In this document: positions 1,550 to 47,719 of the stretch, in pieces
Layout of the letters: each line of letters opens with the position of its first letter
How positions within the stretch are numbered: the stretch's first letter is position 1
Assembly: GCA_021234155.1 (NCBI GenBank)
Contig: JAJEKV010000002.1
Coordinates: 40,971,841-41,035,840, forward strand
From: Isoetes taiwanensis
Lineage: Eukaryota > Streptophyta > Lycopodiopsida > Isoetales > Isoetaceae
Length of the DNA: 64,000 bases
Direction of reading: 5' to 3'
Made by a program: the position numbers and the translations under genes
Notes under the pieces: model-generated
The model's input: only the letters and a program-made list of their open reading frames with translations
What the model was told of the DNA's origin: nothing
Databases searched by the model: none

Positions 1550-1760
1550 TTCAGTGAAGCAATTATCTTCTTGAGCATCATATCCAATATGAGTAGCATA
1601 TCCATTACTCTATGTTTGTTCCTGGTGTTCAACTTCTGCCCTCAGCCCAGCTCTTATACATTCCATTTCCTGCTTAAGATCAGTCTTCAGGGTATCAATT
1701 TCTCTCTTAAGATTAAGTTTCATAAGCAACAAGATTTAAAATGAAACACACTTATTTAAG

Positions 1761-2213
1761 AAGTGCGTTTGAAAGATTCCTTTAAAAAAATTGAAAACTT
1801 AAAAAAACAGACAAAATAGGGAGCAAAATAGATTGTTGAGCACTTAGCGTTCGGAATACCACAGGAAAAGTAATATTTCTGAAGCTATTTCATTTTAAAA
1901 AGAGGGCAGAAAAAAAAATGCTTGTTTTAAGGAGAGAAACACTAGTTTTGGAAACTCAACAAGTTCTTATTGTTGAAAATAGAAGCAAATACAGTTTGTC
2001 TTTTTGCACACTTAATGTAAGTACCATCAAAATCAAACAAATAAAAGACAAAGAGTGTGAAATCATGGAGCAAGAAAGAGTTGTTCTAACTAAACGTTGT
2101 TGAAGACACAAGTCTCTCAGTTTAAAAATTTTCATAAATATGTATTACAATTCTTAGTAAGTTTAAAATATAACAAGAGGCACTCAAACAACCATGAATG
2201 ATATTTAGACATT
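1761..2213. other. AT-rich spacer, no gene seen
   Basis: AT-rich sequence with A-runs. A 61-residue open frame on the plus strand has no recognisable features. Nothing else is supported here. Confidence 0.5.
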
Positions 2214-2866
2214 TCAACTTGTCTGTATAAAATCATACGACAGGTGGCTCTTCCCAGTCGACAGGACTCTCGCCCTTGGATCTGTCTCTTGCGAGGCCAC
2301 AAAGCCAGAGACGCCTGCTTCTGATTCTAAGGCTATGGGAACAGGCGGTTTGGCGGGCTCTAGCTCCACGGGCTCCAGGTCCACGAACTCCACCTCCTCG
2401 TCTTTCCTTCCAGTGATAGGAGGCTGGATTTCTGTGTAAGTGCCTTTGACATCCCCAGCACCATTCTTTGCTCCCAGTTCCTTATTTTCATCAGGAAAGG
2501 ATTCACAGGAGCTTATTCTGGTCCTGATGAAACTTATTTTGTCTGCGTCAATATCAACAAAAACAACATTACGTCCCTGTTTAAGGGCGCAAATTGCTGT
2601 GGTGCCTATTCCAGAGAATGCATCCAAAATCCAGTCGCCCGGGTGAGAAAACCACTGTATCAAATTATTAATAAGCCTTTGTGGCTTCTGGTAATGGGAC
2701 ACCACAACGCCTTGTCTCTGTGGGTTTCTCAACTTTTGCAAGACAGCAGGGAACTGGAAAGCATTGCACGGAGGCGTCTTCTCATTCTGCGTATTAAAAT
2801 GTACCATGGTTTTTTTGGTGTATGCGCTGTAATAACCTATATGGAAATGCTCAAAGCAACTGACTA
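2214..2866 (-). pseudogene. N6/N4 DNA methyltransferase, SAM-binding half only
   Basis: A 197-residue open frame that stays open upstream of its first ATG to about 2866. It contains HYQKPQRLINNLIQ (motif X-like), then GDWILDAFSGIGTT (motif I, FxGxGTT type) and VVFVDIDADK (motif II acidic residue). This is the C-terminal half of bacterial-style beta-class adenine-N6/cytosine-N4 DNA methyltransferases. The catalytic (D/S)PP(Y/W) motif, which in this permuted class lies N-terminal to motif X, is absent from the preceding stretch, so the protein as read could bind SAM but not methylate. An acidic tail of about 90 residues follows. The upstream exon 3362-2864 reads in a different frame, so an indel or deletion separates them. 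It faces away from the palindrome array, divergent from the transposase-like gene. Confidence is high for the fold, low for activity. Confidence 0.7.
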
Positions 2867-3362
2867 AGCGCGCACATGTGCATGTGGATTCCTTCTCATT
2901 CTTTGCTTTAGAATAGCCACATGTGCCGGGTATAACTTTCTCACCTGTAGCACTCTGACCCCATCTTCATTCTTTGGTGGCCTCTTAATCGTGCTCAGTG
3001 TCAAAGAAATAGTTTGCTTTAGTAGCTTCGTCTCATTAACCCTTTTCAAAATAGCACTCGACTTGTCTAAGGGCCGCAAAACAATATCTGCCCCAGGAGC
3101 CTTTTGAAGTGCTTCTGCCGACTCCTCTATAGTCAAGGCCTTTGTGGTTCTTGACTTTTTTTTGGGTTGTGTATCTACTACCAAGGCTTGCCGCTTACCC
3201 TTACCTCTCATTACCACCACTTCCTCCTCTTCCTCTTCTTGTTCCTCTTCCTGTTCACTATCTTTCTCCACGTCCTCCTTAGAACGTGGGTACCACAGAC
3301 CTTTGGTCATAACCTTCTCGTCACAGACTGTGACTGATGAAAGAATGTCCACTATGTCCTGT
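2864..3362 (-). CDS. Exon with acidic/NLS segment and possible ParB-like segment
   Basis: The minus-strand frame starts after a plausible splice acceptor (ACTACAG at 3363-3369) and runs to a stop at 2864. It shows an Asp/Glu-rich stretch of about 25 residues, then two basic clusters (MRGKGKRQ, QPKKKSR) that look like nuclear localisation signals. Its end, DGVRVLQVRKLYPAHVAILK followed by QRMRRNPHAHV, resembles the start of ParB/sulfiredoxin-like domains, which in phage and bacterial proteins are often fused in front of N6/N4 methyltransferases. That resemblance is inferred from pattern only. The methyltransferase half follows directly downstream in another frame, so the two were probably one protein. 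Confidence 0.45.
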
Positions 3363-3388
3363 AGTGCAGTGTAAATTAGGAAGTTGAC

Positions 3389-4082
3389 GGTATAAATTTA
3401 TACGGTAAAGCCACAGAGATCAACTTGCATAGCCAAGCTTGTAGTTATCTGCAATGTAATCATGAACGTCCTTTGGCTTGCACATGCTAATACGAAGCAT
3501 TCAGTATGTACACGACATCCCCGTCGTCGTTTATGCAGTTCATGAGAAGCTCATCTTCGTTTTCTGTGGAAGTTAAGCTTGTCATCTCCCCGGCGGGGTA
3601 GTAATCCTCCATCTTAAACCCCCCTGGCCCCGACCACACAAGTACAGGTATGCATCCGTTGGGTAGCGCTTTCTGGCTCCCCTGTGGACATACCATGTCA
3701 CATCTTTCAGTTCGTAGGTCTGTATCTTCGACGTTTGTGTCTTTGATGGTTGTCCCTTGCTTTTGATAGCAATCTTGGGGCTGAAAAGGCGCAAAAAAAC
3801 CCTTTTTACATCAGAAAAATAGTTTTTTAACACAACTTTAAACAATTTAGCTCTAAGAAAAGTGGCTTAAAGAACCCTAAATTTGTGCTATTTTACCCCT
3901 TTTTCTCTGGAAACAGACCTTAAAATACAACACCATTGTTCAAATACTATGGTTCCGGACCTCTCTTTAGACATTCCACACACATTTTAAATTTAGACCA
4001 CGAAAGTGGTACGCCATATAAATTTATACCTACAGAGAAGACAGATGTTTGATTTTATGCCCTTACGGTATAAATTTATACC
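3389..4082. repeat. Outlying copies of the GGTATAAATTTATACC palindrome (3)
   Basis: Three copies with the exact core TATAAATTTATA start at 3391, 4017 and 4069. The first lies just upstream of the acceptor of the acidic/NLS exon. The interval 4017-4069 is 52 bp, about five helical turns. No coding is seen between 3846 and 4127 apart from these sites. Confidence 0.9.
3487..3845 (-). CDS. Possible 5' exon(s) of the leftward gene, unrecognised
   Basis: Two overlapping minus-strand frames (3845-3582 and 3696-3487) lie just left of the main palindrome array. The 3696-3487 frame ends in an acidic, Asn/Asp-rich segment (CINDDGDVVYILNASY); the 3845-3582 frame is basic. Either could be the first exon of the leftward methyltransferase gene. 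I cannot choose a splice pattern or recognise a domain. Confidence 0.3.
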
Positions 4083-4127
4083 GCAAGTGTTTACGAACTG
4101 TTTCTTTTAGCGACTGTGGTCTCCCAC

Positions 4128-4425
4128 AGTATAAATTTATACCGAGAGGGCTCTGGAATGGTATAAATTTATACCGCTAGTGCTCAGACGGTATAAATTT
4201 ATACCGTTGCAGAACACTCGCGGTATAAATTTATATCGAAAAAGTTCTGGAACGGTATAAATTTATACGCTCCGAGCACGAGCGGTATAAATTTATACCG
4301 AGAGAGTTCTGCAACGGTATAAATTTATACCGTCTGAGCACGATCGGTTTAAATTTATACCATTGCAGAGCCCTCTCGGTATAAATTTATACCGTGGGAC
4401 CTTAGACTCGGTATAAATTTATACC
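4128..4425. repeat. Main array: ten phased 16-bp palindromes
   Basis: Cores start at 4130, 4162, 4192, 4224, 4256, 4286, 4318, 4348, 4380 and 4412. Centre-to-centre distances are 32, 30, 32, 32, 30, 32, 30, 32 and 32 bp, i.e. three helical turns each. The consensus is GGTATAAATTTATACC; the copy at 4348 has one core change (TTTAAATTTATA) and the copy at 4224 ends ATATC. Spacers are not random: they fall into a TTCTGCAAC type and a GAGCAC type, each in either orientation. The likely role is a cooperative operator or a transposase/partition-type binding array between two divergent genes. Confidence 0.95.
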
Positions 4426-4557
4426 ATAGACCCAAGACAAAACAAAAACAAGAAGATTAAAAGAGATGTGTAACGAGAATGGTACGGATTAGAGACTTAC
4501 GTGGCCATGACCGTATGGATTCGCTTATAGCTGTTAGTGAGAGCAAATTAGGGTGAG

Positions 4558-4565
4558 TATATAAG
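4558..4565 (+). promoter_or_regulatory. TATA box of the rightward gene
   Basis: TATATAAG followed by a GC-rich GCGCAGCGAGAGCGG stretch where transcription would start around 4590. It sits about 130 bp right of the main palindrome array and 300 bp before the first good ATG (4866). Each palindrome also contains TATAAA on both strands, so alternative start sites are possible. Confidence 0.6.
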
Positions 4566-4704
4566 GCGCAGCGAGAGCGGCTTCGATTCCGAACAGCGTA
4601 TATAGAAAGTAGACCGGCGCCCGCCGGGCTTAAGTACCTCTGTTCTGTGCCTTTCTGTATAGCGGTTCTCCATAACGTCTCCTATATGAATATCTGTAAG
4701 TTTT

Positions 4705-4845
4705 CGTATAAATTTATACCATTTCTGTTTTACCTTACACTTCTCTGTATAAATTTATACCATCTCCGTATAAATTTATACCATCTCCGTATAAATTTAT
4801 ACCGTTCGCTTACGTTCCTGCTTTTGTGTGGTATAAATTTATACC
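4705..4845. repeat. Leader array: five phased palindromes before the rightward ATG
   Basis: Cores start at 4707, 4748, 4769, 4790 and 4832, with spacings of 41, 21, 21 and 42 bp, i.e. two or four helical turns. The array lies between the TATA box (4558) and the ATG at 4866, so it would be in the transcript leader, where each copy could also fold or pair as RNA. This position fits feedback control of the downstream gene. Confidence 0.9.
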
Positions 4846-4865
4846 GTCTGACGCTATTGCAGACT

Positions 4866-5105
4866 ATGGCTGGAGATAAAAGGGTTTCAGAGACTCCCTG
4901 TCCTCCCTGTCGCAGGCTCCCTCCTCTGATGGTTTTCACACCTGCTCCAATGTCACCAGGTAGTAGCCACGAAACTTCTGCCTCCGATAGTCAAAGCCCC
5001 AGCCCTGATGTTTGTACACGTCGTCTTCCACCACCAGTTCAGTTTACTCCACCACAGCCTGCTCCTGAATGTCGTTTGCCCCCACCAATGCGTTTTACTC
5101 CACCA
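4866..5105 (+). pseudogene. N-terminal part of transposase-like gene with LPPPxxFTP repeats, split by LINE
   Basis: ATG at 4866 (MAGDKRVSETPCPPC) begins a Pro-rich, low-complexity region with three copies of a short motif: RRLPPLMVFTP, RRLPPPVQFTPP and CRLPPPMRFTPP. Two more copies (FPPPIHFTP, LPPPVRFSP) lie after the LINE insertion at 10.7 kb, in the same frame. The motif core is PPxxF followed by TP. The reading frame across the insertion is continuous if the LINE and one copy of its 7-bp target duplication are taken out. The function of the motif is unknown; repeated PPxxF-type motifs usually serve as docking sites. Confidence 0.6.
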
Positions 5106-5224
5106 GTCTCGCCATTCTCCTCACTCTCTCTCTAGCGCCCTCACTCTCTCTCTAACGCCCTCACTGCCCTTGCATAGAGCCCCCTTGCTTTGCCCCTTTC
5201 TGGCTTTCTCTCTCTAGGGTTTAC

Positions 5225-5565
5225 AATCTCTCTCTAGCCCCCAAACCCCCAAACCCCCAAAAGGTGCTCTGACCACGATTTTGAGTCCCCAAATTGGATT
5301 CTAAGCATCCTTTTTGCAGCCAGAGACCCCTCAAACTTTGGAACTCCCAAAGAACCCCCAAACCCCAAAAGGTGCTCGACCACGATTTTGAGTCCCCAAA
5401 TTGGATTCTAAGCACCCTTTTTAAGCAGCCGAGAGACCCCTCAAACTTTGGAGCCCCAAAACCCCCAAACCCCCAAAAGGTGCTCTGACCGCGATTTTGA
5501 GTCCCCAAATTGGATTCTAAGCACCATTTTCGCAACCAGAGATCCCTCAAACTTTGGACGTCATG
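5225..5565 (+). repeat. LINE 5' UTR tandem monomers
   Basis: Three consecutive units of about 110-118 bp each hold CCCCAAAAGGTGCTC, a CACGATTTTGAGTCCCC-type stretch, AAATTGGATTCTAAGCA and a CCCTCAAACTTTGGA ending. They start near 5238, 5352 and 5463. They sit just before ORF1, as promoter monomers do in mouse L1 elements; the promoter role is inferred. Confidence 0.75.
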
Positions 5566-7190
5566 GCCACAGAAGATGGGCCAGCCTGGGAAACCCAAGG
5601 CGAGGGGCCGCTACGCAAACGGTCCCGATTAGCCATCATGGACAGGCGAGAGTCATCCTCCATGAAGAAGGAGGCTCGGGCTAAGGCTAAGGCCCCTTCA
5701 GCGCGGCCAGCCCGGCCGGAAGGGATTGATTGCTCAGACCACGCAGGAACTCCTGCCTCGGCAGAGAATTGGAGCCACGTCAAAGTGGGCATGGAGGCTA
5801 ACAGTGCCCGTATTGAGGCTAACAGTGCCCGCCTGGCTGGCATGGCAGTGGAGATGGAGTCCTCAGCACCCCATGTGCTCAGAAGGCAACTGGTGTCGAG
5901 AAGAACCGCATCACAGGTCTGGAGACCCGTACACAACACGTAGAAGATGGCCATGGCCTCGCACACTTCGAACAGCAACAGGCCATGCAGGAGCTCGCTG
6001 ATATACGGGCCCGCCTGGACTCTGTGTTCATCACTCTGGACACCATGACACAGGAGAGGGAGCGGGCAATGCATGAGACGATGGTCACGGTGTCTCGGCT
6101 TCAGTCAGAGGTTGAGGAAGCCACCACCATGGCACGGGGAGCGCAGGCTGCTCTTGCAGACAGCCAGACACAGCTTCGGGCTCTTCAGAGTACGATCGGG
6201 GCAGCAAGCCCGGCTCTGGATGCCCGTGTGCTGGGGCTCGAGCACGCCCTTGCTATTCAGAGCCTGGAGCTCCAGGGGTTGCGGGCAGCCATCCATAGAC
6301 AGGGCCAGGGTCTCCCTACCGAGGTTCATAGTCAGTCGCAAAGCGGTGCGGTGCGGGAGATGGCCAAGCAAGCTTGAGCCCACAAGAGCCGTGCTCCCCG
6401 ACTTCCTCACAGGCCGAGGGCGCAGCTCGCACCGCTACCCTTAATAGCCTCCACGCCGGCAGCCGGACCACGCCGCTGCTGCCCGCGACTCAAGCCACCC
6501 CACGCCATCCCAGCCACCACCACCACCCCCCAAAGACGGGCCCGGCCCTCGCCCACCTTTGACCCCCAGCCGCAGAGAACTCCAAGCCTTGACATGAGAG
6601 GCCACAATTTGGTAGTCCGAGGCATGCCAGAAGAGGAGGGGGAGAGTCTCGTCCACAACATCCGAACACACATTCTCGATTGGATGACATTCCCGGCGCC
6701 AGTTCACATTTCCCGAGCAGCCCGTCATGGGGCTCAGCGCCCGGGTCATGACCGCATTGTCATATTCGCGGTTGTGGATGTGCAGGTGCGTGATGGCCAT
6801 ATTGCGCCAGGGCAAGATGTTGAAGGGGACATCCCTGTACGTGGACCGGGACCTCACACCCGCACAGCAGGAGGCACGCAGACAGGAGCTTGTCAGGGTC
6901 AAAGGCATTTGCCACCAAGGAGGTGCCGCAGGATTGTTTCGGGGCAGAATGCAAATTTTCCGCCAACCTGCTACTGCTGCAGACCCCGCAGCCCCAACCG
7001 CAGCTGAACGTGGCCCTGCTTCTTCTTCTCCTACCACGGCCCCCCCTCTCCTGCTCCTACTCCTGCTCCCTCACAACCCACGCCCTCTCAGCCACATGCT
7101 GCCTCCGCTCCATCTACTTCTCACTCAGCCTCTCGCTTCCGCCCCCTCCCCTCAATCAGTGCGCATACCACCACTACCTGCCGACAAATA
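5554..7190 (+). pseudogene. LINE ORF1 (coiled coil + RRM-like)
   Basis: The nucleic-acid-binding chaperone of the LINE. A basic, Ala-rich start (from 5554) leads after frame breaks to a long coiled coil at 5985-6377 (MQELADIRARLDSVF through SQTQLRALQSTI). An RRM-like segment follows at 6594-6790 (HNLVVRGMPEEEGES, then RIVIFAVVDVQ), then a C-terminal segment near 6800-6960 (LRQGKMLKGTSLYVDRDLTP). The order coiled coil, RRM, C-terminal domain is that of L1 ORF1p. Pro-rich spacers separate the parts. The frame changes at least four times, so no full protein can be made. Confidence 0.65.
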
Positions 7191-7196
7191 GGAATT

Positions 7197-8210
7197 GTGC
7201 CTCCGGGTGGTCTCATGGAATTGTTGAGGCTTCCCTTGGCAGAAGGGGGACAGACTCAACTCCGTGGCAGCCGATATGGATCTCATCTTTCTCATGGAGA
7301 CATGGGAGCATCTTTGAGCCGCGATGCACGACCTGCCCGGTTACCAACATTTCTCGGTCTTCAATACACATGCAGACCGGAGGGTCATGGTGGGGTTGCT
7401 TGCTACTACCGGACAACCTTGGCACATTCGGTTACCCTCCAGAAGACAGACAGACACAACCGGTACTTGTGGGTTCGTGTGCATAATACCAGTGGCAACC
7501 CTCTTTTTCTGGCCGCCTGTTATTTCCCTCACGCAGAGAGCACCTTCTATCGCAGCCACTCTGATGCGGATAGGATGGACCCTTATGTCGATCTATATGA
7601 TGACATACGAAGCCTGCGCTTGGGTAGGGTCGTCCTTCTTGGAGATTTCAATGCACCGGACAGAGTAGAGCAGCCCATGAGACTTGACCCCCTCGGCGAC
7701 GACGATGTCCCCGCAGCCTACGTCCGCCAGAGGCAACCCGCCCACGAGGATCGGATGACGGCCAGTCACTTTCGCTTTGGCGACAGTTGCTCCCGCTATG
7801 TGGTATTTTTGACTTGATAATTTGCAATGGCTCATCCGCGATGGCCCGCTTCTGCAAACAAGTGCACATGCGCATGTGACAATCGGGGGAGGGTCTAGTG
7901 CGGTGGACTATGTGCTCGTAAGTTGCGCCAAGATATGCATCTCATCAGTCGTTTCCGGGTGGGCACCGACAGTCGGGATGAGGAGGTCGACTCAGATCAT
8001 CGCCATCCTCAGTTGCGACTAGATTATGAGCAGGCAGAGGACTATGCCGAGATGCTCATGGACGCCGCCAAAGAATTCTGCGGACCCCACACTAGAGCAA
8101 ATGGACCAGCACCGATTGACTTCGCTATTATGGGATGCAGCAGACAGGTGCTTTGGCAGATCCCCCCCGCGTCGCCGCTCAGGGACAACAACATTTCCGC
8201 GTAACCGATG
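7197..8210 (+). pseudogene. LINE ORF2 endonuclease domain
   Basis: The target-nicking domain of the LINE polymerase. The 7197-7817 frame shows GVACYYRTTLAHSVTLQ, FLAACYFPHAEST and VVLLGDFNAPDRVE, the last being the catalytic GDFN block. Further right, SSAVDYVLVS and a frame-shifted EVDSDHRHPQL carry the terminal SDH-type catalytic histidine. Its parallels elsewhere in the window read LLLGDFNG. The domain is split across frames by small indels. Confidence 0.7.
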
Positions 8211-8508
8211 GTTTGATACGGAGTGTAAAGAACACAAGCGCCAGCCACTCACATTCGATCCGGATCCCGGGGCAGCTTGCGGGCCACCACGACGATCGCA
8301 GCGCCCATCCGAAGGAGACAAAGGCGGTACCTTTTGCCGCATCGGGGAGATGTTCGGCCTGCTGGACACTCATCCTCGAACCTTTTGGCATAGAGTGCTT
8401 TGAAGGCCAGCCCAGCCTACAGGGGACATCACACCCGGGCAAGGGGGAACAAGATTTGCAAAGCAGCTCTATGACCCACCGTGGACGCTGCGCCCATACC
8501 CCCACAGG

Positions 8509-10290
8509 ATGGCCCCCCATTGGTTCTCGCGTAGGAGGATGTTGTGGAGGGCCTGCAACGACTGGCTAATGGGAAGGCAAACATCTCGATGGTATGCGTG
8601 CCGAAGTTACTCAAATGAGCGGGGCGTACCGGTGCCGATCCTCACTACCCTGCTCAACAGAGCATTGCAGGAAGGTTTCCCCCGACAATGGACTACAAGC
8701 AGGGTTGTCCCCATTCACAAGGCGGGTGACCCACACTGTCCGGCCAATTACCGACGATCATGGCCAGTTCAATATTTGCTAAACCGCTATCGGCATTCTC
8801 GAAAGCAGCAGCTTGACCCGGGGCAGAGGGCGCCAGATGTCGCGAGCCCTCACACAAGCAGGCTTTAGACCCCGCCACTCAACGATTGACCATATCTTTA
8901 CACTGCGGGCACTAATTGAAGACAGCCGGAACCATCGGCAGCACTTGTATTGCTGCTTTGTGGACATCGCGAAGGCTTTTGATACTGGTCCCCCGAAAAG
9001 CCATGGGCTAGATCTGGCCAATCAAGCTGCCGCTGCCGTTGCTGTAATGCCATATACAAAGCTGTATGAGAGTTGTTTTGGCGAGGATGCACCCGACGGG
9101 CCAAGCATTCACCAAGAGTATCGGGTCCGGCAGGGCTGCCCCTCTCACCAACACTTTTTGGCCTCTACATTGATCGCTTAGAGACCGGCTTCTCGAGCAT
9201 GGGGGATGGCATACGCCTTTTGCACCAGGTCATCCACCAGCTCATCTATGTGGACGATGTTGACCTTCTCGCCCACACTCCAAAAAGCTATGCAACTCAT
9301 CCGATGCCCTAGACACATTCTCGTCGCTACGAGACATGCGCTGAATCTGCCAAGACCGTAGTGGTTCTCATATCCTCTTCACGCCACCCCACGCCTCCCC
9401 GCACTCACATATCGGGGGCGGCTGGGAGGTCACGCCCACCTACAAGTACCTAGGGGTGGAGTTCCCCTCCTCGCCTCTGTTGGGAGGCGCCCATCCGCTA
9501 AGGGTGACAAAGAAGCCGGAAAGCACTTTATCCCATGCGTAACAACAAATCACCGTGCGAGCTCTATGATTGGGGCCATCATTCACATCTGCTTTTGGGG
9601 CACTAGTTGAGCTGTCCCTTCAGACGGGTCGAGGTTTGGGGCCCGGGTCGCCTCTTTGGCGACACGGAATGACTTAGAGCAGGTGCGAAGGCATTTTTGG
9701 CACGCACTTGGGGTGAAACCTTCAGTCCCCTATCATCGATTCTCGCTGCGAAACCGGATTCTTGCCGCCTGGGGGCAGCCCTTGATAGACACATCGCCTA
9801 TTTTCGTAAAGTGGCTAATATGGGTGATGCTTTCGGCTCCGCGACTGGCTTACGCCGTGGGCAATGGGCCCGCAGCCTTCCGGGGCCTGTTGGAGGGGTA
9901 AGAGAGATCGCTGGTTTGCCGATGGAACGTCGCGAGAGCACAAAATGCGCGCAGTGTAGACACAGAGGCCGATCGTGACAGCCTGCGGGAGTACCTGGAC
10001 GCTTGCTTCCTTGGCAAGCTCTGGGACCCCGGCGCTCGAGAGCAGGTCAAAATGGCCCATTACGAGGAGCACATCAACCCCGTGTTAGCCCGGGGCCCGC
10101 AGCTCTACCTGCGTTCCCAGCTGCCCCTGAAAAAGCGAAGACTCATTGCCTCCATTCGCACAGGTGCCCACCATCTTCGTATCGAGACGAGCAGGTGGAT
10201 TGGGGAGCCCCGCCAGGACAGGCTCTGTTAGTGTTGTCAAACGGGTGCCATTGAGGATGAGTCTCACACTTTCCAGAGTTGCCCAGCATT
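8509..10290 (+). pseudogene. LINE ORF2 reverse transcriptase and C-terminal Cys/His motif
   Basis: The target-primed reverse transcriptase. Blocks in order: EGFPRQWTTSRVVPIHKAGD (about 8665-8730), QAGFRPRHSTIDHIFTLRAL (about 8855), CCFVDIAKAFDT (first catalytic Asp, about 8950), RQGCPLSPTLFGLYIDRLE (across a frame change near 9130-9185) and LIYVDDVDLL (catalytic DD, 9240-9270). A C-terminal motif C-C-H-C (CCQTGAIEDESHTFQSCPAF) lies at about 10228-10290. Much of the thumb/connection region between 9310 and 10085 is scrambled. Decayed but unmistakable. Confidence 0.8.
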
Positions 10291-10545
10291 CAGTCAGATC
10301 TGGGCCAGATATGCTCCCTTAGTACGGCAGGACTTGCCCCTACATTTGCTGATGAACACACCGCCAAGATGCGTTTCGGGGTCGTACATCCGAGAGGTAA
10401 TGGATCTCAAGGAGCTCACCTTTGCCCCCACCTGGCTGCCCGCTGATCAGGCACTACGGGTGCGGTGCATGAGTGTATATATTTGTGTGTTTTTGCATTT
10501 TGTATATTGGAACAGTTTGTCAGCAGGCTGATTGCTGCCACATTT

Positions 10546-10684
10546 TTTCCCTCGAAAACCCTTCGGGGCGGGGGTTTTTTAATCCGGGTAGTAATCCGCT
10601 TGCTGCGCTTTTGTATTGGGTCCCATAGACCGATTGATCTCCGTGGACGATAAAAATACCTTCCTTCCTTCCTTCCTTCCACCA
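10546..10684 (+). repeat. LINE 3' end: two hairpins, (TTCC)n tail, target duplication
   Basis: CCCTCGAAAACCCTTCGGGG (10552 on) folds as a UUCG-type hairpin and recurs at 42896. It is followed at 10624-10660 by the family's terminal element: CATAGACC-GATT-GATCTC, then GTGGACGATAAAAATACC. (TTCC)n follows at 10661-10680, and the downstream copy of the TCCACCA target duplication is 10678-10684. Confidence 0.75.
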
Positions 10685-11313
10685 CAGCCCACAGAACAGC
10701 GAAACTTTCCTCCACCCATTCATTTCACTCCAGCAAGGGAGGACGAGCTCACACTCCCTCCTCCAGTTCGTTTTAGTCCTTGTCTCATAGTCCAGCGTAG
10801 ACAGCCTCCCCGGAGGCAAATCACACCAACTCCATCCATCTCGCTAATTGATACTACACTAAGCGGGAGCAGTCATCGCCATGCAACTCCAGTATTCTAT
10901 GACACTTCAGGAGCTGCTCAACTACGTCACCAACCTCGAGTACGTTTTCCCAGAGAGAGGGAAAGCAGCTCCCTCCAAGACCTGCCCACACCAAACCTCT
11001 CAGCATCTACTAGTACACCATCTGTTGCTTCCTGTCAGATGAAGAAACACCTAATGTTGATCTCTCAGAAGAGGACATAGCAAAGCCACAAGACTCTCTG
11101 TTCGAATTCAAAGGTCTTGCGAGTGAAAACCTTAAGCGAAACTTACACAAGAAAGCATGTACATCCCAAAGAAGAAAGAAACTTATGGATGAGGCTCACT
11201 TGAGGGCCACACATACAAAGCACTGTTGTTTTCAACGTTGTTTGCTTAAGATTGGACTAAAGGAATTGAGGTTGATTCGTGATAGTTACAGTTCAATGAC
11301 TCTGCTAGACTAA
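10678..11313 (+). pseudogene. Transposase-like gene, continuation after the LINE
   Basis: Resumes the Pro-rich region in frame with two further motif copies (FPPPIHFTP, LPPPVRFSP) to a stop at 11080. A frame shift near 11035 leads into SDEETPNVDLSEEDIAKPQD and a segment with paired cysteines (THTKHCCFQRCLLKIGLKEL, about 11210-11265) like the CC..C zinc-binding start of a widespread transposase-like family (I believe DUF7869-containing). A TAA at about 11311 interrupts the frame just before MGYLAFN. Confidence 0.55.
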
Positions 11314-12600
11314 ATGGGTTACTTAGCCTTCAATATTAGGCCAGATTATGGTGAAAAGTTTACTTACACAGCTGGTGGCCACACCATCTGTCAAACAGCC
11401 TTTAAATTGATTCATGCTTTAGGCAGCAGACGACTTGACCGCCTGAAGAAAAGGCTTGACAAGAATCTAGGCATTAATGACTACTGCCATTCAGGAAGTA
11501 TATCCAGAATTCATGCCCTTCAATGTGTTTCCTGGATGGAAGGTTTCTTTAAGGAGTCATGCGAGAAACTCCCTAACAGCCCTATGTACCACTTGAGTGA
11601 CAACTTCACAAAACGTGAAGTCTACAATAATTATAAGGACATGTGTGTTGAGGCTGGAGAACGCCATGTATGCTACTCTTACTTCACTGTGCTCTGGAAA
11701 AAAAGAGTTTTCCCACGTGTCTATTCCTAGAAAGCACCGGATGTCTGTTTGTGCTACATGCTCTGAATTAAAAGCTCAGAGACAAAATGCAAGGACACTT
11801 CACACTAAAAGTAAGCTTTCACAACGTGCTCTTGCCTAGTTCTACTCAATGGTAAGTTTTTGTCCTGAACATATTTTCATTTCAGATGCATTGAAAGAGA
11901 AATTGAACAAGCACAGAGAACAACAATCTTTGGAAAGGAGAAAATTGACAAAACACAGGAAGAAAGCACTGGAACAACCACTAAACTACATATTGGTTGT
12001 TATTGATGGAATGGACCAGAAGAAGACCACCCTACCACATTTTGTCAATGTGCCTAAGGATGCTCCTGAAGAAGGTTGTTGGTGCTATGGTATTATTTAG
12101 ACAACCCATGTCATTAATGATTTATACCTGGATTTTGACCATTGTACTCCAGTCTAACTAGTGTACCTCTCGCATTAGATCCCCTGCTTGCCCCGTTTCC
12201 GTACAAAAAAAAAAAAAAAAAAAAAAAAATCATGTTAAAACTTTGTGCAATGAAATCCTGTGCTGCTGAACTGAGTTCTGGCCCAATTCCAGTGCTTGAT
12301 TTCATGGGTATGCTCTTCAATCATGGAGGAACATTTTGTTGGGCTCTTGGTCATCGACCCCAGCATAAGAGAGGTATGTGTTGCTTAGATTTATTAATTT
12401 GAAGCCCTGTATTGTTAGAGAAAATTAGTGGTTTTTTCGAGCTAGATCAGAAGTTTATGCTTCAGGGGTTTAAACTGTTGAACATCCAGCTGGTCCCTTC
12501 ACCAAGACTGACTTGGATTAGGAAATTGAAGAACTTCTAAAGCCTATTTGTAATGTGAATGTGGCTCCTGCCGATGATGAAATGAAGGGTAGTGGGTAGC
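11314..12600 (+). pseudogene. Transposase-like protein, core region (DUF7869-like), decayed
   Basis: The 11314-11730 frame reads AGGHTICQTAFKLIHALGSR then RLDRLKKRLDKN, typical of the segment that follows the N-terminal zinc motif in this family. It continues with NNYKDMCVEAG and a CxxC (SVCATCSELKAQ, after a frame change near 11700). The 11849-12100 frame contains VVIDGMDQKKTTLPHF, the hallmark (V/I)DGMDQxK block, whose first Asp is probably a catalytic residue of an RNase H-like core. Coding-like sequence with stops continues to about 12600 (VEHPAGPFTKTDLD). The poly(A) run and stops mean it is inactive. The family assignment comes from memory of motif layout. Confidence 0.55.
12205..12230 (+). 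repeat. A-run of about 25 nt inside the transposase-like gene
   Basis: A pure run of about 25 A after CCCCGTTTCCGTAC. It could be slippage or the tail of a very short retroposed insert; no target duplication is evident. Confidence 0.6.
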
Positions 12601-19275: not shown

Positions 19276-20875
19276 CGGCTTGGGCCTCCAGAGGTCATTG
19301 CAGACGGAATTCATGGCAATGGATTGGGCTGGCATAAGAGCATGGTCATGGGTAGTCCACTCCATCCGCCCCTCCTGTGCGCACTTTGCAGAGTAGGTTG
19401 AAAAGTGTTGGGACTGATCAGAGTCTCACGGATGCATAGCCAAGGGGCTATTCCCGGGTTGCATCTTCCCGCCCCCGGATGGGGCGGTAGGGATCACTCC
19501 CTCCGAGATCTACATGCCGACTCAAGGTGACTAGAGGGCCATCGCCCTTATTCGCCTTGAACCCAATGGAGAGTGACGCATCACTCCACGGGTGTCAAGC
19601 CCATGCCTTGCCCACACGCAGTGGCAAGCCATTAGACCTAGTCCACAGGGATCTCCGATAGACTTTACACACCAGAGGGACCGTTCTCCTGAGTCAGGAC
19701 ATGAACCTCCTTATGAGCCAGTCTAGCCCCTTCACCCACAACCAGGTGTGGTTCTTGTACACAGGCCGAATTTACAGTGTGCTAAAGAGGCTAGCTAGGA
19801 GCATCAACTACTATTCCTTAGGGTCTCTACCCCCCTTCCCAATACAATGAGTCCACAGAGATACATCATCATACATATCACAGAAGAACTAAAGAACAAG
19901 ATCTAATCTAATCACAGAGTTAGGTTCTTTAGTTAGGCTCGATATCTAGAGATCTAGATAGCTGTTATGGGCAATTTAATAGGCTAAACCTACTTATTCA
20001 ATGACTGGGAGGCGGTTTAGGCTATTAAATTGACAAAATACTTGATCATTGGCTCGCTCCTCCTGTCCTGAACTCGACCATCCTGCTGAACTGCTAGAAG
20101 ATGAAGCTAGGAAGGGAAACTAATGAGCTAGATCGCTCAGACAGAGTTTGGGAGGTGGGTTAGGCTCCTGGAGCAAGCAAAACAGAGACCTAGAATGCTA
20201 TGGACGAAAATAGCAAGTTAGGGTTTCCTTTACCTAAATAGACAAGGGTTAGGGCTAGGGTTTCCCATTATCCCTTTAAGCATGTGGGATAATTGGGTAT
20301 GGCCCACTTGCCTTTATTAACTAGGTGGCATAAAGTGTCCACATGGGAAAATGTGTACATAGATAAATGTGCACATGGGTAAATGTGCACATTAATAAAA
20401 TGTACACACCTTGCAAGTTGCCCCCTAGGGTGCTACCTGCTTGGCTACACGTCGGCATACACGTCAATCGGGATGGCGTGTACGCGTGACGAGGCAGTAC
20501 AGTATACGTCTTAGGACCGTATACTGTGCTGGAACGTCACATCGATGGGATTAGTCTTGGGGTCAGGATGCTCAGCCATCCCGCCACACCAGCCGTCCAT
20601 ACGGATGCCGTGGTTGCGACATTTCTAGAGGTCCATGACCATCGCGTTCATTTTGCAAGTAATCCATTCCTGGCAATTAGTCATCATCCATGCTCACGAA
20701 CTGGTGTCTCCGCTTCGCACACTGCTCGTCTTATATAGCCCAACCGTTTGGAACTCTGTCGACGTGGACCAATCGAAACAGTGCTAACGTGGTTGCAATG
20801 CAAGGCCATTTCTAAATCCAGAATCTTTTCTCCCGCCGCATATCTAGCCATGGTACCTTCTGACACTTCTTTTTT
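19276..20875 (+). other. Non-coding internal region of the LTR element
   Basis: 1.6 kb without convincing coding. It includes a CACATGGG-type short repeat near 20340-20400. Most of it is nearly identical in copy 2 (28595-30188), but two patches (about 19405-19500 and 20450-20560) differ strongly. Confidence 0.5.
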
Positions 20876-21223
20876 ATGATATCCCACTTCGAGTTGCCAG
20901 CATTAAATGACATTCCTTCCTTTCACGCCCGTCGGGTCATTAATATTTGTACCTTCGACCCACACATCCCATCGTTCATTCACGTTTCATCTCCACCGCC
21001 TCCCTTAACTACTTTCGGGGACTTAGCCAAATTTTTTACCTCTCAATCGACTCGCCGATCATTGCCACGGCACAACCAGCGGTTCTGTTTCATTCTCATC
21101 ATGCCCCTTCGCCACAACTTGTGCGCCCTAAAACCTTTTTTCGTCCCACTTCATTTCGTCTTACGCTCTCCGCCCTCGGCTTCATCACATCCGACCTTCG
21201 GTTCCTTTCCGGCGCTCCTCGCC

Positions 21224-21974
21224 ATGGCGCTTCAACAAAATTCCCTACTCTTCAAGTTCTTTGCTCCACGGGATCCGGCTCTTTTTGAGTCATTATCTTC
21301 TCCACTCCAACCTTTAAGTGATTCCACGGGCGGTCCAAGTAGGGAAGTTGCAGAACGCCACGGTCTTTACGAATTCTCCAAACAGGACCTCCCTACACCA
21401 AATCCGGACCAACTCCGGCAGTTTGTCGCTCACATGATCAACACCACCAATGGATACGCCACCCGGGTCGATCAGACAGCCATTTTGCTTACCCCGGTTC
21501 TGCTTTCTCAGGTATTCCAGTTCCCTCTTCATAGGCCTTCTTTATCTTGGGCTGCCTTACAGGAACAGGATGTCTCTAAGTATGGCCAACTTCCTTATCT
21601 ATCTATCTTATCAGGCCAACACTCATAAACTCACGAACATTGCCAAATCACATGATACTTTTGTTAAATTTCTATGGCGAAAGTTCTATGGGTATTCCAT
21701 CAAGAATACCCACATAAATAAACAGTTTTTCAACATTGTTATTGTGGCCATCCACTCCACTCATCCTATTGATTGGCCACAAATTTTGTTTCTCTGACTT
21801 CTTCATGAAATTGATCGCATCCAAGCAGCCCCTTCTACAGGCCTTGAAACCGCCGTGGGTGCTCACCTACAAGCCATCATCCGTCATTGTGTCCCTATAC
21901 CCAGTCCAGGTTCCCCCACCACTCAGCATACTACTTCTCAAACATCCACCCACCAACCCTCCAATCCCATTCCT
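21224..21974 (+). pseudogene. LTR element ORF2, N-terminal half (copy 1)
   Basis: From ATG 21224 to the stop at 21628, then through a frame change to 21974. It includes HGLYEFSKQDLPTPNPDQLR, QTAILLTPVLLSQVFQFPLH and, after the frame change, a SHDTFVKFLWRKFYGYSI / ILFLRLLHEIDRIQAAPST-type helical region. The layout recalls the 'putative plant transposon protein' domain in the extra ORF of Athila/Tat-type retroelements; this is inference. The first 15 codons differ from copy 2, where the frame (MAASTKFPTLQV) looks more original. A MITE cuts it at 21975. Confidence 0.45.
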
Positions 21975-22296
21975 GGGTGAAAGCATGCTAGGGTGTACCA
22001 TCTAAAGTTCTTTTTAGGGAGTGCGAAACTACCCAGAAAAGTACCCAATACTGGGTACTGGGAACTTGCATTAATATCTCAATAAACAATAAGTGTGAGA
22101 GTTTATTCATACATTTTAGTCTTTAATAGTATTATCATCCTCTAATACTATAGATTGACATGTCAATGACCTTCAACTCAAAAATTTTGGATTGATTTTA
22201 ATGGAAAGAAAAAATAGAAAGTACCAGTTTTAAAAGTACCCAGTGTAGGTACTTCTGAGGGTTCCAAAAGTGGTACACCGTAGCATGCTTTCACCC
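21975..22296. mobile_element. 322-bp MITE with 26-bp TIRs, absent from copy 2
   Basis: Ends are GGGTGAAAGCATGCTAGGG and its near-perfect inverse (one mismatch over 26 bp). TCCT flanks it at 21971-21974 and 22297-22300. The matching place in copy 2 (31290) is an uninterrupted CCATTCCTATTAACC, i.e. the empty site. No coding. The superfamily is unclear (3-4 bp target duplication). Confidence 0.9.
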
Positions 22297-22300
22297 TCCT

Positions 22301-23148
22301 ATTAACCACCAGGCTGAGACTTCACGGCCTCATCCTTCTCCTGGTCACACTCAAAATCAAGAAAAACCTATTTCTGTCTCCTCTTCCTCAACGGAAACCA
22401 CACACTCCAATTCTCACCATGTTTCTCAGGCGTCACAGTCTAATCGACAACAGGGCCCCGCACCTCCACCTTCTCGACAGGCCCTGTATCAATATCAACA
22501 GGATGTGCAAGCAGCCGTCCTTAAGCTTCAAGACTCTCAAGAAACCTTCATGAATGGCATTCAAGCTTACATAGAGGCCACAGAAGCGGTTCACAGGGAT
22601 CTCCAGGCTACCAACACAAAAGCTCAATCCCTGGAAGACAGTCTTCGAACGAAGCACGAGGCTCTTTTACAGGCCCGTGAATCTCTCAAGGCTGAACAAG
22701 AACAGACAAGCCTGCTCGCTGATCAACAGGCTCAGTTACAGTCAACTATTCAAGAATTGTTGGCTACCAACAAGGATAAGGATAAACTCCTTGCAGATCT
22801 CCAAACCATGTACACGGAGCTCTCTCAGAATTACAACAACCAGGTCCAAGAACTTCGTGAGCGCAATGTGCGCATCACTTCTCTCGAAGACCAACTTTCC
22901 ATGCTCGAAAATCAGGTCACGCCTCTCCAGGCTCAACTCACAGAAGCTCAAAAATAGAAGATCATTGATGATACAGAGATTGCCTCCCTTCGGCTTCAAC
23001 TCCCCACTCATGGGCAATCCTCTTCACAGGGCACGCTATCTCACAGAAGGTTCCGTGATCAATCCCGTCTTCTGCTAGAGAAAGATAATCAGATCCTGAC
23101 TTGGAGCATCAACTCAAACAAGCTGTTCAGTCGGTAGAAGAAGCTTAA
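22301..23148 (+). pseudogene. LTR element ORF2, coiled-coil half (copy 1)
   Basis: A Ser/Thr/His/Pro-rich linker and then a long coiled coil (22505-22957: QQAQLQSTIQELLATN, ELRERNVRITSLEDQL, ENQVTPLQAQLTEAQ). Copy 1 has a TAG where copy 2 has CAG (about 22956) and frame damage near 23100. Compared with copy 2 it lacks one copy of a seven-codon repeat (DKDKLLA type). Confidence 0.6.
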
Positions 23149-23157
23149 AGTCAACAT

Positions 23158-24510
23158 GAGATATATATTGAACTTGCTCTCCGCATTCCTCAGGATTTCT
23201 TTACGCCTTCCAGCTATCTGGATTATGTGGTTGCCCGACGCCACCTTTTTCTTCTGAAGTGGTATTCGGCACACGGCAAGCTTAATGAGCCATTGGGTCA
23301 AACGGATCTTCTCAGGATTTGGCCGGACCTTTCCATAGAATACACAGGCTTACTCTGTGCCCTCTTTGTCTTTGATCAACTCCACTGTGCGGATCCTGAT
23401 TTTTTCATTTTCTGGGTTGTTCAGCCTATGGCTTACATTTTTCATGATTTTTATCTGGCTGATACAAAGGATAAATTCCTAGGTGAGGCCCACCGGATTT
23501 TTCACGGCAACCCTCATGCTCATTGGCTGCTGTTACAGAACAATCCGTATCTACAAGATCCAGCTCACGCCAACACTCTCATCACGGAGTACATGCCGGA
23601 ACTTGCTCAGCACCTACCTCTGTAGCAAGCCGAGACGCTGGAACAGGTGCGCAAAAATTTAGCTCATCCTGAGGATCTTCCCTTCGCACAGATATACTTG
23701 CAGCACCTGGGTGGCTACAACACCCTGCGTGCCTTCCTGGACAGTAAGACTATACCCACGGATGGGTTAATCCTCCAGTTTATACCATGCTCTCAGGCTC
23801 TGATTGGGATCAGTGGTGCCGTGCTCTTGATGCAGACCTTGTTCGAGAATTTCGGGAACAGGCGCAGCAACCCACCCCCACAGGCATTGCTCAATCTCCA
23901 TATGCTTCCTTGGGTGCACCCCCAAGGCCCAGATATCTCACCGCGGATTGGAGTCTTCCCTTTTGGACGAAAGTCATGGATGGCCACGCGGACTGGACTC
24001 CTGCCCAGATCTCCACAGATCTTAGATGGGATCCCCGTTTTGTTCGACGCTCTGATTGGGAGAATGGTGCTACCTTGGACCACATTGAGAATTGGATCTA
24101 CATCCCCAATGAGCGCGGTTGGCAAACGCCCACTGAGGCTATCTCAGACCTTGATCTCTTCTTGGAGCGTGCTGCCACCTCCCCCGATCCATCCGTTCAC
24201 AGACAAGCAGGCTTTTGTGCTGCTTTAAAGTGCATTCTTTTGAGTTCTCTGGCTCGCCAGCGTCCTATTTATTATTGCAACCCGAATGCCAGCGTCAGTG
24301 CCTTTGGCCTTCAGACTTGCCTTCTTATGGAATGCCAGTTTGTTCCTGCTGAAGCACACCGTGCACTGGAAGAGATGGTACACTCAGGATTTCTCATTGA
24401 CGCTCTTCCCGCCATTGGTCTCAACACTCCAGAAGCCCTCCAGGCACGGCACGACCTCATTACCAATTATCATTCTGGCGCCCGTCCTCATACACACGCC
24501 AGGATGAGTT
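23158..24510 (+). pseudogene. LTR element ORF3, unknown protein (copy 1)
   Basis: A roughly 450-residue protein in several frames: RIPQDFFTPSSYLDYVVARR, DQLHCADPDFFIFWVVQPMA, LQHLGGYNTLRAFLDSK, GSDWDQWCRALDADLVREFR and, late, AGFCAALKCILLSSLARQ. It is Trp- and aromatic-rich and helical. A TAG replaces the TGG of copy 2 at about 23625. I recognise no domain and no DDE or YxDD catalytic motif. It ends just before the polypurine tract. Confidence 0.5.
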
Positions 24511-24573
24511 TCATGTTGCTGGGTTTCCACCATCTGAGAAGCTTCCCCCTTTCCTTCCTCCTAGGTGTCGTTT

Positions 24574-24585
24574 GGCGGGGGGGAG
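24574..24585 (+). other. Polypurine tract
   Basis: GGCGGGGGGGAG directly before the 3' LTR; it primes plus-strand synthesis. The same tract precedes the copy 2 LTR at 33584. Confidence 0.75.
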
Positions 24586-25160
24586 TGTTAGTCCTGTATG
24601 TCCTGGTACAGGACTATGCATGCACACCATGGACCATGTCAAGAACAAGGATCCAAAGGCAGGTACAGGTCAGTCGGCAAAAGCCCAGCAGAAGGCCACA
24701 CAGAAGGCCACACCCACGCCAAAGAAGAGGCAGAGAACAGACAAGTGACGGGCCGTCAGCGTCAACGTGATTTCAGGCACCTCAAGAGGCAACGTCAACA
24801 TTCCTGCAAATCAGGCCTTCTTCCAGGAGTCGGCACCGAGATCTGACAGAGTATCTATTTGGGCCAAAGGCCATTGTACTATATATATGATCAGTAGAGC
24901 TAGCATTCACGGGCTAGATGAGTTTTTGGTCTTGTCTCCATTATGTTTCTCTCTATTGCGAGAGCTCATGTATCATCATTGATATCAAAGAGTTTTGTTC
25001 TCATCATTATGTTCTCATTGTCATCTTTTGTTCTCTCTCTTTTTTCCTTTCCTTTGTTTCTTTTGCAAATCCTGCATGACACAGCTACCAGATTCTCCTG
25101 TTTGATCCAAGGGTCCTCACAGAGAGCTGTCTTGTAGTTCCCGAACCCAGACTCTAAACA
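24586..25160 (+). repeat. 3' LTR (copy 1)
   Basis: TGTTAGTCCTGTATGTCC to CTCTAAACA, followed by the target duplication TATAC. It carries a second AGAAGGCCACAC unit not in the 5' LTR and a small deletion near its end (CTTGTAGTTCCC). Confidence 0.9.
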
Positions 25161-25380
25161 TATACTACGAAGATCTGCCAACCTTTTTCACCCTAAATCG
25201 AGATATATTAGGGTTTTTATAGTATAGAGAAGTTTGTATGCATAATCATAATGTTGATGATAATGACAGTTTGAGTGAGAATGATGAGCTAGATGAGGAC
25301 TCAGAAACTCATCTATTGTTTTACAATGATATTTAAAATTATCGTCCAATAGGTCTTCGAGGCCTCCCATAGACGTAATA
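25161..25380 (+). mobile_element. LINE B, 3' end right of the LTR element
   Basis: Continues the LINE B frame (YYEDLPTFFTLNRDILGFL, then an acidic tail DDNDSLSENDELDEDSE), then the 3' element at 25346-25380 (TAGGTC-TTCGA-GGCCTC, then ATAGACGTAATACAC). Confidence 0.7.
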
Positions 25381-25462
25381 CACACACTCACACACTCTCT
25401 CTCTCCATCTCTCCCTCCCCTCCCTCCCTCCCCTTCCCTCCCTCCCTCCCTCCCTCTCTCTC
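25381..25462 (+). repeat. CA/CT microsatellite tail of LINE B
   Basis: CACACACTCACACACTCTC passing into CCCTCC repeats. LINE C begins straight after it. Confidence 0.85.
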
Positions 25463-25465
25463 AGA

Positions 25466-25966
25466 GTATCTTTGATCTCTAGGAATAATATGTCTCCATC
25501 TACCCACTTCCACATATCCATCTTAAAACGTAAGGAAATCTCGCGCATGCGTCTGAGCTCTCATCATTTGAGTATAAAAGAAGGAAGATGGAGGAACATA
25601 CCGAGGGAAAGGCGAGTCTGCAAGGCCTGTGGCCAGGATGAGGTCGAGGATGAGCTGCATGCCCTTCTTTTATGTTCAGCATATGAGGTATTGAGACGAA
25701 GATATGGAGTCCAAGGCACACTGGCAGATCTGTTTAGCCTACCACCTTCCACTATTGGTAATTTTATCATAGATGTATTGAGAATTAGACGAACTTGTCT
25801 TGCTAGTATTGATGCACTTTTACAAATTGATATAAATGAGATAGAGATGATTAAGAAGACAGATGATGCTTCTGACTGTGGAAGCTCATTACATGATTGG
25901 TTTGATGTAGAGGACAATCAACGCGTCTGGTAGACTTGATGGTCTTAGTAGGCATAATAACAAACA
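25466..25966 (+). mobile_element. LINE C, 5'-truncated C-terminal piece
   Basis: An intact 153-residue frame (to 25933) holds the ORF2 C-terminus: LSSHHLSIKEGRWRNIPRER and CKACGQDEVEDELHALLLC, the C-C-H-C motif. It ends with the 3' element at 25929-25966 (TAGACT-TGAT-GGTCTT, then AGGCATAATAACAAAC). Only the last quarter of the LINE is present. Confidence 0.8.
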
Positions 25967-26016
25967 TTTCATTTCTCTCTCTCTCTCTCTCTCCCCCCTC
26001 CCTCCTCTCTCTCTTA
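25967..26016 (+). repeat. (CT)n microsatellite tail of LINE C
   Basis: TTTCATTTC then (TC)n, CCCCCCTCCC and (CT)n. LINE D begins right after. Confidence 0.85.
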
Positions 26017-27838: not shown

Positions 27839-28116
27839 GAAGCGTGAAAGGGTGGGCAAAAGAAGTGCCAGTATTTTACATTTACAAATTCAAAATGTTA
27901 GGAAATCCCCTCCCCCCCAGAAATTATTATTCTTGGAATGAATCATTAATAGGGCAAATAATTTTGAACTCTCCTCCCGCTCTCTGTTCAACCTCCCTCC
28001 CGCTCGAACCTCCATAGACGAAAGCTTGACATCCATATTCGAACCTCCATAGCCAAGATCAGGACCTCCATAGCCAAAAGCTTGCATTTTCAGAGAGCTG
28101 AAGCACCAGGGAACAG
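27839..28116. other. Spacer between LINE D and the unknown gene
   Basis: Contains a short repeat GAACCTCCATAG (three copies, 28000-28070). No coding is seen. It is repeated at 36827-37106. Confidence 0.5.
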
Positions 28117-32163: not shown

Positions 32164-32170
32164 AGTCAAC

Positions 32171-33500: not shown

Positions 33501-33583
33501 GATGAGTTTCATGTTGCTGGGTTTCCACCATCTGAGAAGCTTCCCCCTTTTCTTCCTCCTGAGTGTCTTTTGGCGGGGGGGAG

Positions 33584-34165
33584 TGTTAGTCCTGTACGTC
33601 CTGGTACAGGACTATGCATGCACACCACGGACCATGTCAAGAACAAGGATCCAAAGGCAGGTACAGGTCAGTCGGCAAAAGCCCAGCAGAAGGCCATGCA
33701 GAAGGCCACGCCTACGCCAAAGAAGAGGCAGAGAACAGACAAGTGACGGGCCGTCAGCGTCAGCGTGATTTCAGGCACCTCAAGAGGCAACGTCAACATT
33801 CCTGCAAATCAGGCCTTCTTCCAGGAGTCGGCACCGAGATCTGACAGAGTATCTATATTGGGCCAAAGGCCATTGTACTATATATATGATCAGTAGAGCT
33901 AGCATTCACGGGCTAGATGAGTTTTTGGTCTTGTCTCCATTATGTTTCTCTCTATTGCGATCAGAGCTCATGTATCATCATTGATATCAAAGAGTTTTGT
34001 TCTCATCATTATGTTCTCATTGTCATCTTTTGTTCTCTCTCTTTTTCCTTTTCCTTTGTTTCTTTTGCAAATCCCGCGTGACACAGCTACCGGATTCTCC
34101 TGTTTGATCCAAGGGTCCTCACAGAGGGCTGTCTTGTAGGAGTTCCCGAACCCAGACCCTAAACA
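33584..34165 (+). repeat. 3' LTR (copy 2)
   Basis: TGTTAGTCCTGTACGTCC to ACCCTAAACA, followed by TATAC (34166-34170). It shares the extra AGAAGGCCA unit with the copy 1 3' LTR and keeps the CTTGTAGGAGTTCCC end seen in the 5' LTR. Confidence 0.9.
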
Positions 34166-47711: not shown

Positions 47712-47719
47712 TAGGGCGG

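Follow-up and report, generated by a model that had tools for sequence, protein, structure and literature searches.

The window, by which we mean the whole 64-kb stretch of Isoetes taiwanensis DNA that was analysed, contains a broken copy of a DNA transposon. In this copy, a methyltransferase gene and a presumed transposase gene are transcribed away from each other, and numerous copies of a short palindrome, TATAAATTTATA, lie between them. The copy is dead, as its right ~1.95 kb including the right terminal repeat is absent and a LINE-like element has inserted within it. The features of the copy, with the strand in brackets where one applies, are as follows.

1728–12077: broken DNA transposon copy (blastn with the copies L005 and L001: 1728–2875, 2873–5105 and 10706–12077)
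1728–1757 (+): left terminal inverted repeat, aligned with the left ends of eight other copies
2214–2966 (−): frame with the methyltransferase C-terminal exon (DAFSGIGTTAICAL), Pfam N6_N4_Mtase (PF01555) at 2.2e-14
2873–2875: internal-deletion junction, where the alignment skips from 1137 to 3070 in L005 element coordinates
2873–3097 (−): rest of the ParB-like-domain exon, matching the L001 exon by tblastn (92%, 75 aa)
3391–3402: palindrome next to the N-terminal exon, a single site matching TATAAATTTATA
3423–3797 (−): degenerate methyltransferase N-terminal exon, tblastn 47%, five stops
4017–4028: palindrome ahead of the main block, matching TATAAATTTATA
4069–4423: main (intergenic) palindrome block, 11 sites including the single-mismatch one
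4707–4843: leader palindrome block, five sites, immediately upstream of the presumed transposase start
4866–5105 (+): start of the presumed transposase gene, with a proline-rich N-terminus
5106–10705 (approximate): LINE-like insertion breaking the presumed transposase gene, where homology to L005 and L001 breaks off
10706–12077 (+): presumed transposase gene resumes by homology to L005 and L001, first part of the DUF7869 exon only

Relative to L005, the internal deletion spans ~1.9 kb and removed the middle exons of the methyltransferase gene together with two palindrome-bearing blocks in its putative introns. The LINE-like insertion includes endonuclease- and reverse-transcriptase-like ORFs (named by eye), and a 107-bp unit in three tandem copies is found near its start (5238–5558).

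An earlier note on this DNA had described an array of 15 identical palindromes at 4067–4845, and this interval indeed holds 15 exact copies of TATAAATTTATA and, at 4348, a 16th that differs at one position. Two further exact copies flank the interval at 3391 and 4017, giving 17 exact sites and one single-mismatch site in the window, all between 3391 and 4843; no other match with at most one mismatch was found elsewhere in the 64 kb. The number of matches expected by chance was 0.43, and none of 100 shuffles reached 18. The spacings were also confirmed (61, then 32, 30, 32, 32, 30, 32, 30, 32 and 32 in the main block; 41, 21, 21 and 42 in the leader block), but the 16-bp form with flanks that had been attributed to every site, GGTATAAATTTATACC, is complete at only 8 of the 16. 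Degenerate tandem units of 62, 32, and 21 bp make up parts of the array blocks. Across the genome (1.66 Gb), GGTATAAATTTATACC occurs exactly 7,218 times and its reversed control does not occur.

Other copies of the transposon were collected by the proximity of the two genes (loci L001–L012) or as divergent copies (L013–L020, with L018 taken from the transposase list). In L001–L012 the element is ~8.5 kb long and bounded by 30-bp inverted repeats, AACAARGTTTAAAATGAAACRCACTTATTT, that enclose the two divergent genes. All six full copies for which both ends were seen have 4-bp target duplications (ATCC, TTAA, CTTG, ATGT, ATAT, and AAAT), as do seven of eight pairs of terminal repeats separated by a shorter distance. 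The exact terminal repeat occurs 1,367 times in the genome, and the first 100 listed occurrences form 23 facing pairs, 14 of which are 8.4–9.4 kb apart. Both genes are present in high copy number, with 3,369 first-look candidates for the methyltransferase (151 scored) and 2,731 for the presumed transposase (150 scored). The latter matches DUF7869 in L001 (PF25273, 1.1e-50), the sole Pfam match over its cut-off besides the PF01555 match of the methyltransferase, and a profile search of the genome with PF25273 returned 9,909 candidates, of which 150 were scored. Six long DUF7869 loci were inspected and none was without a methyltransferase, although the piece of L050 that was examined contained only the N-terminal exon. 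The suspicion that the array belongs to a mobile cassette whose genes flank it is thus borne out by the terminal repeats, the target duplications, and the DUF7869 and methyltransferase genes.

The gene that runs divergent from the presumed transposase (METHYLTRANSFERASE) encodes, in coding order, an N-terminal domain, a stretch rich in acidic residues (by eye), a ParB-like domain, and finally the methyltransferase. The frame in the window scored 54.4 bits against PF01555, compared to a curated cut-off of 26.7, and the corresponding L001 exon scored 51.1 bits; the catalytic motif reads DIPY (by eye), which we take to be a DPPY-type catalytic motif of DNA methyltransferases. The earlier note had also ventured that the array might be partition-like, a good guess since this gene carries a ParB-like domain, but one tempered by how weak that domain is by profile. 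Ten of 12 exon sequences matched the ParB-like PHROG family phrog_1033 (best 1.7e-6), and all 12 matched a second ParB-like PHROG family (best 0.0064). Eight of ten plasmid matches to the exon are annotated as ParB or Noc, at weak E values of 0.4–2, and a profile–profile comparison with seven plasmid ParBs paired the expected box, again weakly (hhalign E 0.08, probability 0.7%). A Pfam search of the 12 exon sequences up to E = 1 returned no ParB match, the best being the unrelated IgA0_D2 (0.00049, under its cut-off), and no helix-turn-helix family was among the matches of these unspliced exons. NCBIfam likewise gave no ParB match, and among solved structures (PDB; three sequences) no ParB was found. 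Searching the whole genome with the phrog_1033 profile returned nothing at 1e-3, and no relative of the domain in viral or prokaryote contigs was confirmed by tblastn. The best match to the exon among phages was a Bacteroides phage protein (E 0.04), for which there was no Pfam match up to 0.1. Taken at the level of sequence, membership of this domain in the ParB family is weakly suggested.

In the better copies, the palindromes form four blocks with single sites in addition. Two of the blocks lie between methyltransferase exons and therefore in what appear to be introns, with spacings of mostly 28–30 and 28 bp; spacings in the intergenic block are mostly 30–32 bp, and those in the leader block are 41, 21, 42, and 21 bp. 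A counterpart of the single site at 3391 (e.g. L001 4643) was found in all 11 main-family copies among L001–L012. The palindromes thus extend beyond the region that separates the genes, occurring also in the putative methyltransferase introns and in the gene-less derivatives described below. None of 463 sites (at most one mismatch, 26 loci) fell into segments homologous to coding sequence, although these segments make up 45% of the span; coding sequence was represented by the DUF7869 frame and five exon pieces, so that some of it had no query. Constraint on the palindromes was evaluated by mapping 16 copies on L005 with blastn, without use of the palindromes, and comparing columns present in at least 6 of the 16 other copies. 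In five stretches, A/T columns within palindromes were 0.969–0.994 identical and other A/T columns 0.743–0.886, and the observed difference was reached by 0, 1, 1, 0, and 0 of 380, 180, 160, 440, and 290 circular shifts of the mask, respectively. An earlier test with 14 and 15 of 16 copies, in which the blocks were recognised by palindromes and spacings, gave a result that agrees; the badly decayed L015 was left out of the selected-row constraint test and of the count of substitutions in the palindrome centres.

Helical phasing of the sites was examined in 11 better copies (L001–L012 without L009), a spacing being scored as in phase if it was at most 1.5 bp from a multiple of 10.5 bp, for which the chance expectation is 29%. 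In-phase spacings accounted for 70% of 96 in the intergenic block and 98% of 50 in the leader block, but for only 12% of 42 and 19% of 54 in the two intron blocks; the spacings are not independent, because the copies are related and the blocks hold tandem units. In five loci of the lineage with the centre TCCGGA (see below), 66% of 35 spacings were in phase, many near 42 bp, and the intron spacings in the GAATTC lineage are 100–116 bp. The claim of exact phasing therefore stands for the two blocks of the window and fails in the intron blocks, and universal helical phasing was dropped as a property of the element. Random spacing, which the earlier note had named as evidence against its reading, was accordingly encountered in part, namely in the intron blocks and the GAATTC intron, and not in the intergenic and leader blocks. 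Same-face binding may matter in these promoter-side blocks.

Related lineages of the element carry different palindromes. These follow a common scheme, TATnnn·nnnATA, with the centres AAATTT, GAATTC, TCCGGA, and GCGCGC; sites for the scheme were chosen by similarity to a consensus, which inflates identity within a family but not the TAT shared across families. A divergent lineage comprising L009, L013, and L018 (61% identity to L001 in the ParB-like exon) carries TATGAATTCATA in its intron as well as in the intergenic and leader parts, both halves of the palindrome having changed. This GAATTC lineage is not clean, as it includes half-and-half sites and one perfect TATAAATTTATA is present in each of L009 and L018; exact GGTATGAATTCATACC was found 13 times in the genome. 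Further loci were chosen among the 150 listed DUF7869 matches with their palindromes still unseen, six for long frames (L048–L053) and nine for differing match bounds (L054–L062). Among the six long loci, five have 5–11 perfect copies of TATTCCGGAATA and L053 has five of TATGCGCGCATA; TATAAATTTATA-type sites (at most two mismatches in 14) were absent from all six, and the ParB-like exon is present in the pieces of five. The TCCGGA loci resemble the main family in layout, with sites in the intergenic space, close to the leader, and between exons of the methyltransferase gene, and L053 has two sites between presumed transposase exons as well. For the other nine loci, the 1.8 kb preceding the DUF7869 match were examined; the palindrome is TATTCCGGAATA in five, TATGCGCGCATA in three, and TATAAATTTATA in one, and every locus has at least five sites (at most two mismatches in 14) and 2–13 perfect 12-mers. 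An array is consequently present at 15 of 15 loci sampled by DUF7869, in 14 cases of another palindrome (TATTCCGGAATA in ten and TATGCGCGCATA in four), and palindrome kinds are not mixed at any of the 15. Related elements lacking an array, which would have spoken against the reading of the earlier note, were thus not seen in this sample. Exact GTGTATTCCGGAATACAC occurs 2,585 times in the genome (control 0). In the TCCGGA centre, C>T outnumbers every other substitution at the CpG (26 counted), so the host probably methylates the elements at times.

Between palindrome lineages, the ParB-like exon is 46–63% identical and the N-terminal exon (L001 4675–5067, minus strand) only 16–25%, making the latter by far the fastest-evolving part. 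Pfam gave no match above its cut-off for the N-terminal exon, which is a candidate for the part that reads the DNA. In the identity tables, the palindrome agrees equally with the methyltransferase and DUF7869 lineages and no discordance was found. Distinguishing the methyltransferase from the transposase as binder by discordant phylogeny was therefore abandoned, and the transposase stays a candidate binder.

If the array were plain satellite DNA, it should turn up in unrelated contexts, and this was not seen: ten of ten loci sampled by palindrome (L030–L039, which cover every cluster of 50 listed palindrome sites) are in this kind of element, four matching full elements and six shorter ones. 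Short elements were also sampled by their terminal repeats rather than by palindromes. L040–L047 represent eight of the nine short pairs among the 23 facing pairs (a 5.9-kb pair was omitted), and no listed pair was shorter than 2.2 kb. One of them, L046, consists of two abutting partial elements between one pair of exact terminal repeats and was not counted among the simple derivatives; a 38% tblastn match had made it a candidate for a further DUF7869 lineage, which was rejected as the DNA there is 91% identical to L005. The remaining seven are 2.2–4.8 kb long, have 4-bp duplications, and contain gene remnants only, with longest frames of 112–165 aa in the five examined. All seven keep arrays, of 6–13 palindromes each (at most one mismatch). 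The derivatives form two families, whose interiors outside the arrays and ends have no mutual match. The short-derivative subfamilies L040/L041/L045 and L030/L037/L039/L042/L047, ~70–79% identical in the listed matches, both keep the array in differing layouts. Retention in the derivatives suggests that the array is needed in cis, though it could also reflect ancestry, because no more than two to three independent origins underlie the derivatives.

Several of these observations point to a dimeric protein encoded by the element as the reader of the palindromes: change occurs in both halves, mutation spares the sites, the sites avoid the coding segments tested, lineages differ, and the sites survive in derivatives. 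The earlier view that the sites resemble targets of a dimeric DNA-binding protein is therefore upheld by their conservation and by the symmetric change on both halves. As to which protein, we lean somewhat towards the ParB-like methyltransferase, with the palindromes serving as a private self-address against silencing; it is favoured by the distance of the sites from the termini and by the published proposal that proteins of this kind mark the transposon encoding them. Under this reading, the methyltransferase would bind its many sites in the introns, intergenic space, and leader of the element and from there modify the element (6mA or 4mC) or coat it. This marking would shield the element and its gene-less derivatives from host silencing, as VANC does for VANDAL elements, and lineages would have altered the central three base pairs of each half-site, resulting in several codes in one genome. 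Weighing against it are the weak ParB profile, the mixed sites of the GAATTC lineage, the equal agreement of the palindrome with both genes, and the C>T changes in TCCGGA sites, which point to probable host methylation. A more specific version is rather doubtful, in which each of at least four lineages would have a ParB-like clamp-methyltransferase that loads at parS-like arrays, slides, and writes 6mA or 4mC, the codes being orthogonal.

Sub-terminal repeats serve as transposase binding sites in other DNA transposons, and the DUF7869 protein might likewise bind the palindromes, either in transpososome assembly or at an internal enhancer. In its favour, the gene-less derivatives, which must move in trans, retain the arrays, and palindrome and DUF7869 lineage agree. 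We nevertheless consider it unlikely, given that in the full copies every site (at most one mismatch) is more than ~470 bp away from the left end and more than ~3.5 kb away from the right, that the seven simple derivatives have none within ~500 bp of either end, and that the terminal repeat itself contains no palindrome; sites near both termini, as in a sub-terminal array, were thus found in neither the full copies nor the derivatives. Sites of a host transcription or chromatin factor exploited by the element appear less probable again. The small number of palindrome kinds (four) would fit a host factor, as would the presence of TATAAATTTATA in derivatives whose N-terminal exon remnant has 33% identity to L001, but a centre that shifts with the element lineage inside one genome is odd for such a factor. 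The proposal that the array is an operator of the two flanking genes can draw on the main and leader blocks, which lie between the genes, on the window copy, which has these and single sites only, and on TATAAATTTATA being TATA-box-like on both strands. However, two more blocks lie between methyltransferase exons, arrays are kept where the genes are gone, and the centres in other lineages are GC-rich. A simple operator is unlikely because the sites also occur in the putative introns and in gene-less derivatives, which led us to reject this as the main role, and we regard operator or promoter sites in any form as improbable. That the palindromes are functionless tandem repeats spread by duplication is hardly credible despite the tandem units of 62, 32, and 21 bp, as the palindromes stay while the spacers decay and change symmetrically between lineages, and a similar layout recurs with other palindromes.

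The preferred reading, in which the ParB-like methyltransferase binds the palindromes, combines elements of several known systems. In bacterial ParB–parS systems, a palindrome of ~14–16 bp is present in several copies near the ParB gene. The multi-copy palindrome close to a gene with a ParB-like domain resembles this arrangement, but here the domain, with its weak ParB homology by profile, shares a gene with a methyltransferase and belongs to a eukaryotic transposon; a ParA was not seen. ParB-methyltransferases of algal transposons are already known, and the proposal exists that they recognise the transposon encoding them by binding and modify it (PMC12477816). In Sola1-1_Ec32 of Ectocarpus, a gene with ParB-like and N4/N6 methyltransferase domains lies opposite the transposase (PMC12477816), so that a methyltransferase gene antisense to the transposase is found both there and here, with a ParB-like domain that is weak by profile in the present element. 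Sola elements have 4-bp target duplications (PMC10741241), as does the element described here, whose presumed transposase is a DUF7869 protein; Sola1-1_Ec32 is 21.5 kb long compared to ~8.5 kb here. The main text of the Sola1-1_Ec32 report (PMC12477816) contains no occurrence of "palindrom".

Anti-silencing through motif arrays is known in plants as well. The VANC proteins of Arabidopsis VANDAL elements recognise a non-palindromic motif of 8–9 bp (PMC5735166, PMC10398659), and the sections consulted of one of these papers give no indication that VANC is a methyltransferase (PMC5735166). The element described here would resemble VANDAL in its outcome, escape from silencing, and does so in having non-coding motif arrays that differ between related lineages. 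It differs in that the motif is palindromic, with a common outer TAT and a changing centre. Genes for DNA-modifying enzymes have been reported in other eukaryotic settings, including a bdelloid rotifer methyltransferase whose bacterial-type N4 methylation (4mC) is a host epigenetic mark (PMC8885841) and TET/JBP genes in fungal DNA transposons (PMC12730594). In contrast to the rotifer enzyme, the methyltransferase here is located in a mobile element with its own arrays of sites. Nothing in the literature searched, whose coverage did not extend to key algal sources, combines ParB-methyltransferases and motif-array anti-silencing with a set of palindromic codes within a single genome, and no mention of DUF7869 was found in that literature. 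The palindromes are candidate target sites for the ParB-methyltransferases of eukaryotic transposons, for which none was found in print, making the function directly testable. If the preferred reading is true, the lineages would provide a natural series of DNA-binding proteins and palindromes in which it is chiefly the centre that varies, a resource for learning specificity. They would also, alongside VANC, be a second case of transposons countering silencing with a private address code.

Other repeats were noted in the window. The segments ~20864–28072 and ~30177–37058 are near-copies of one long repeat, alike in their ORFs and tandem repeat. The first copy includes a reverse transcriptase ORF (RVT_1, 27288–27839), and two other scanned ORFs of the repeat had no Pfam match. 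Arrays of TTCTAGAAAG with a period of 10, which we presume to be heat-shock elements from their appearance, occur at 45250–45337 and 46444–46520, and beside them are AATCTAAGG-type repeats at 45524–45899 and 46600–47020. CACTA-type fragments flank these arrays (DUF4218 at 43644–44588 and tnp2 at 47172–47729), and a heat-responsive CACTA element in the window is possible.
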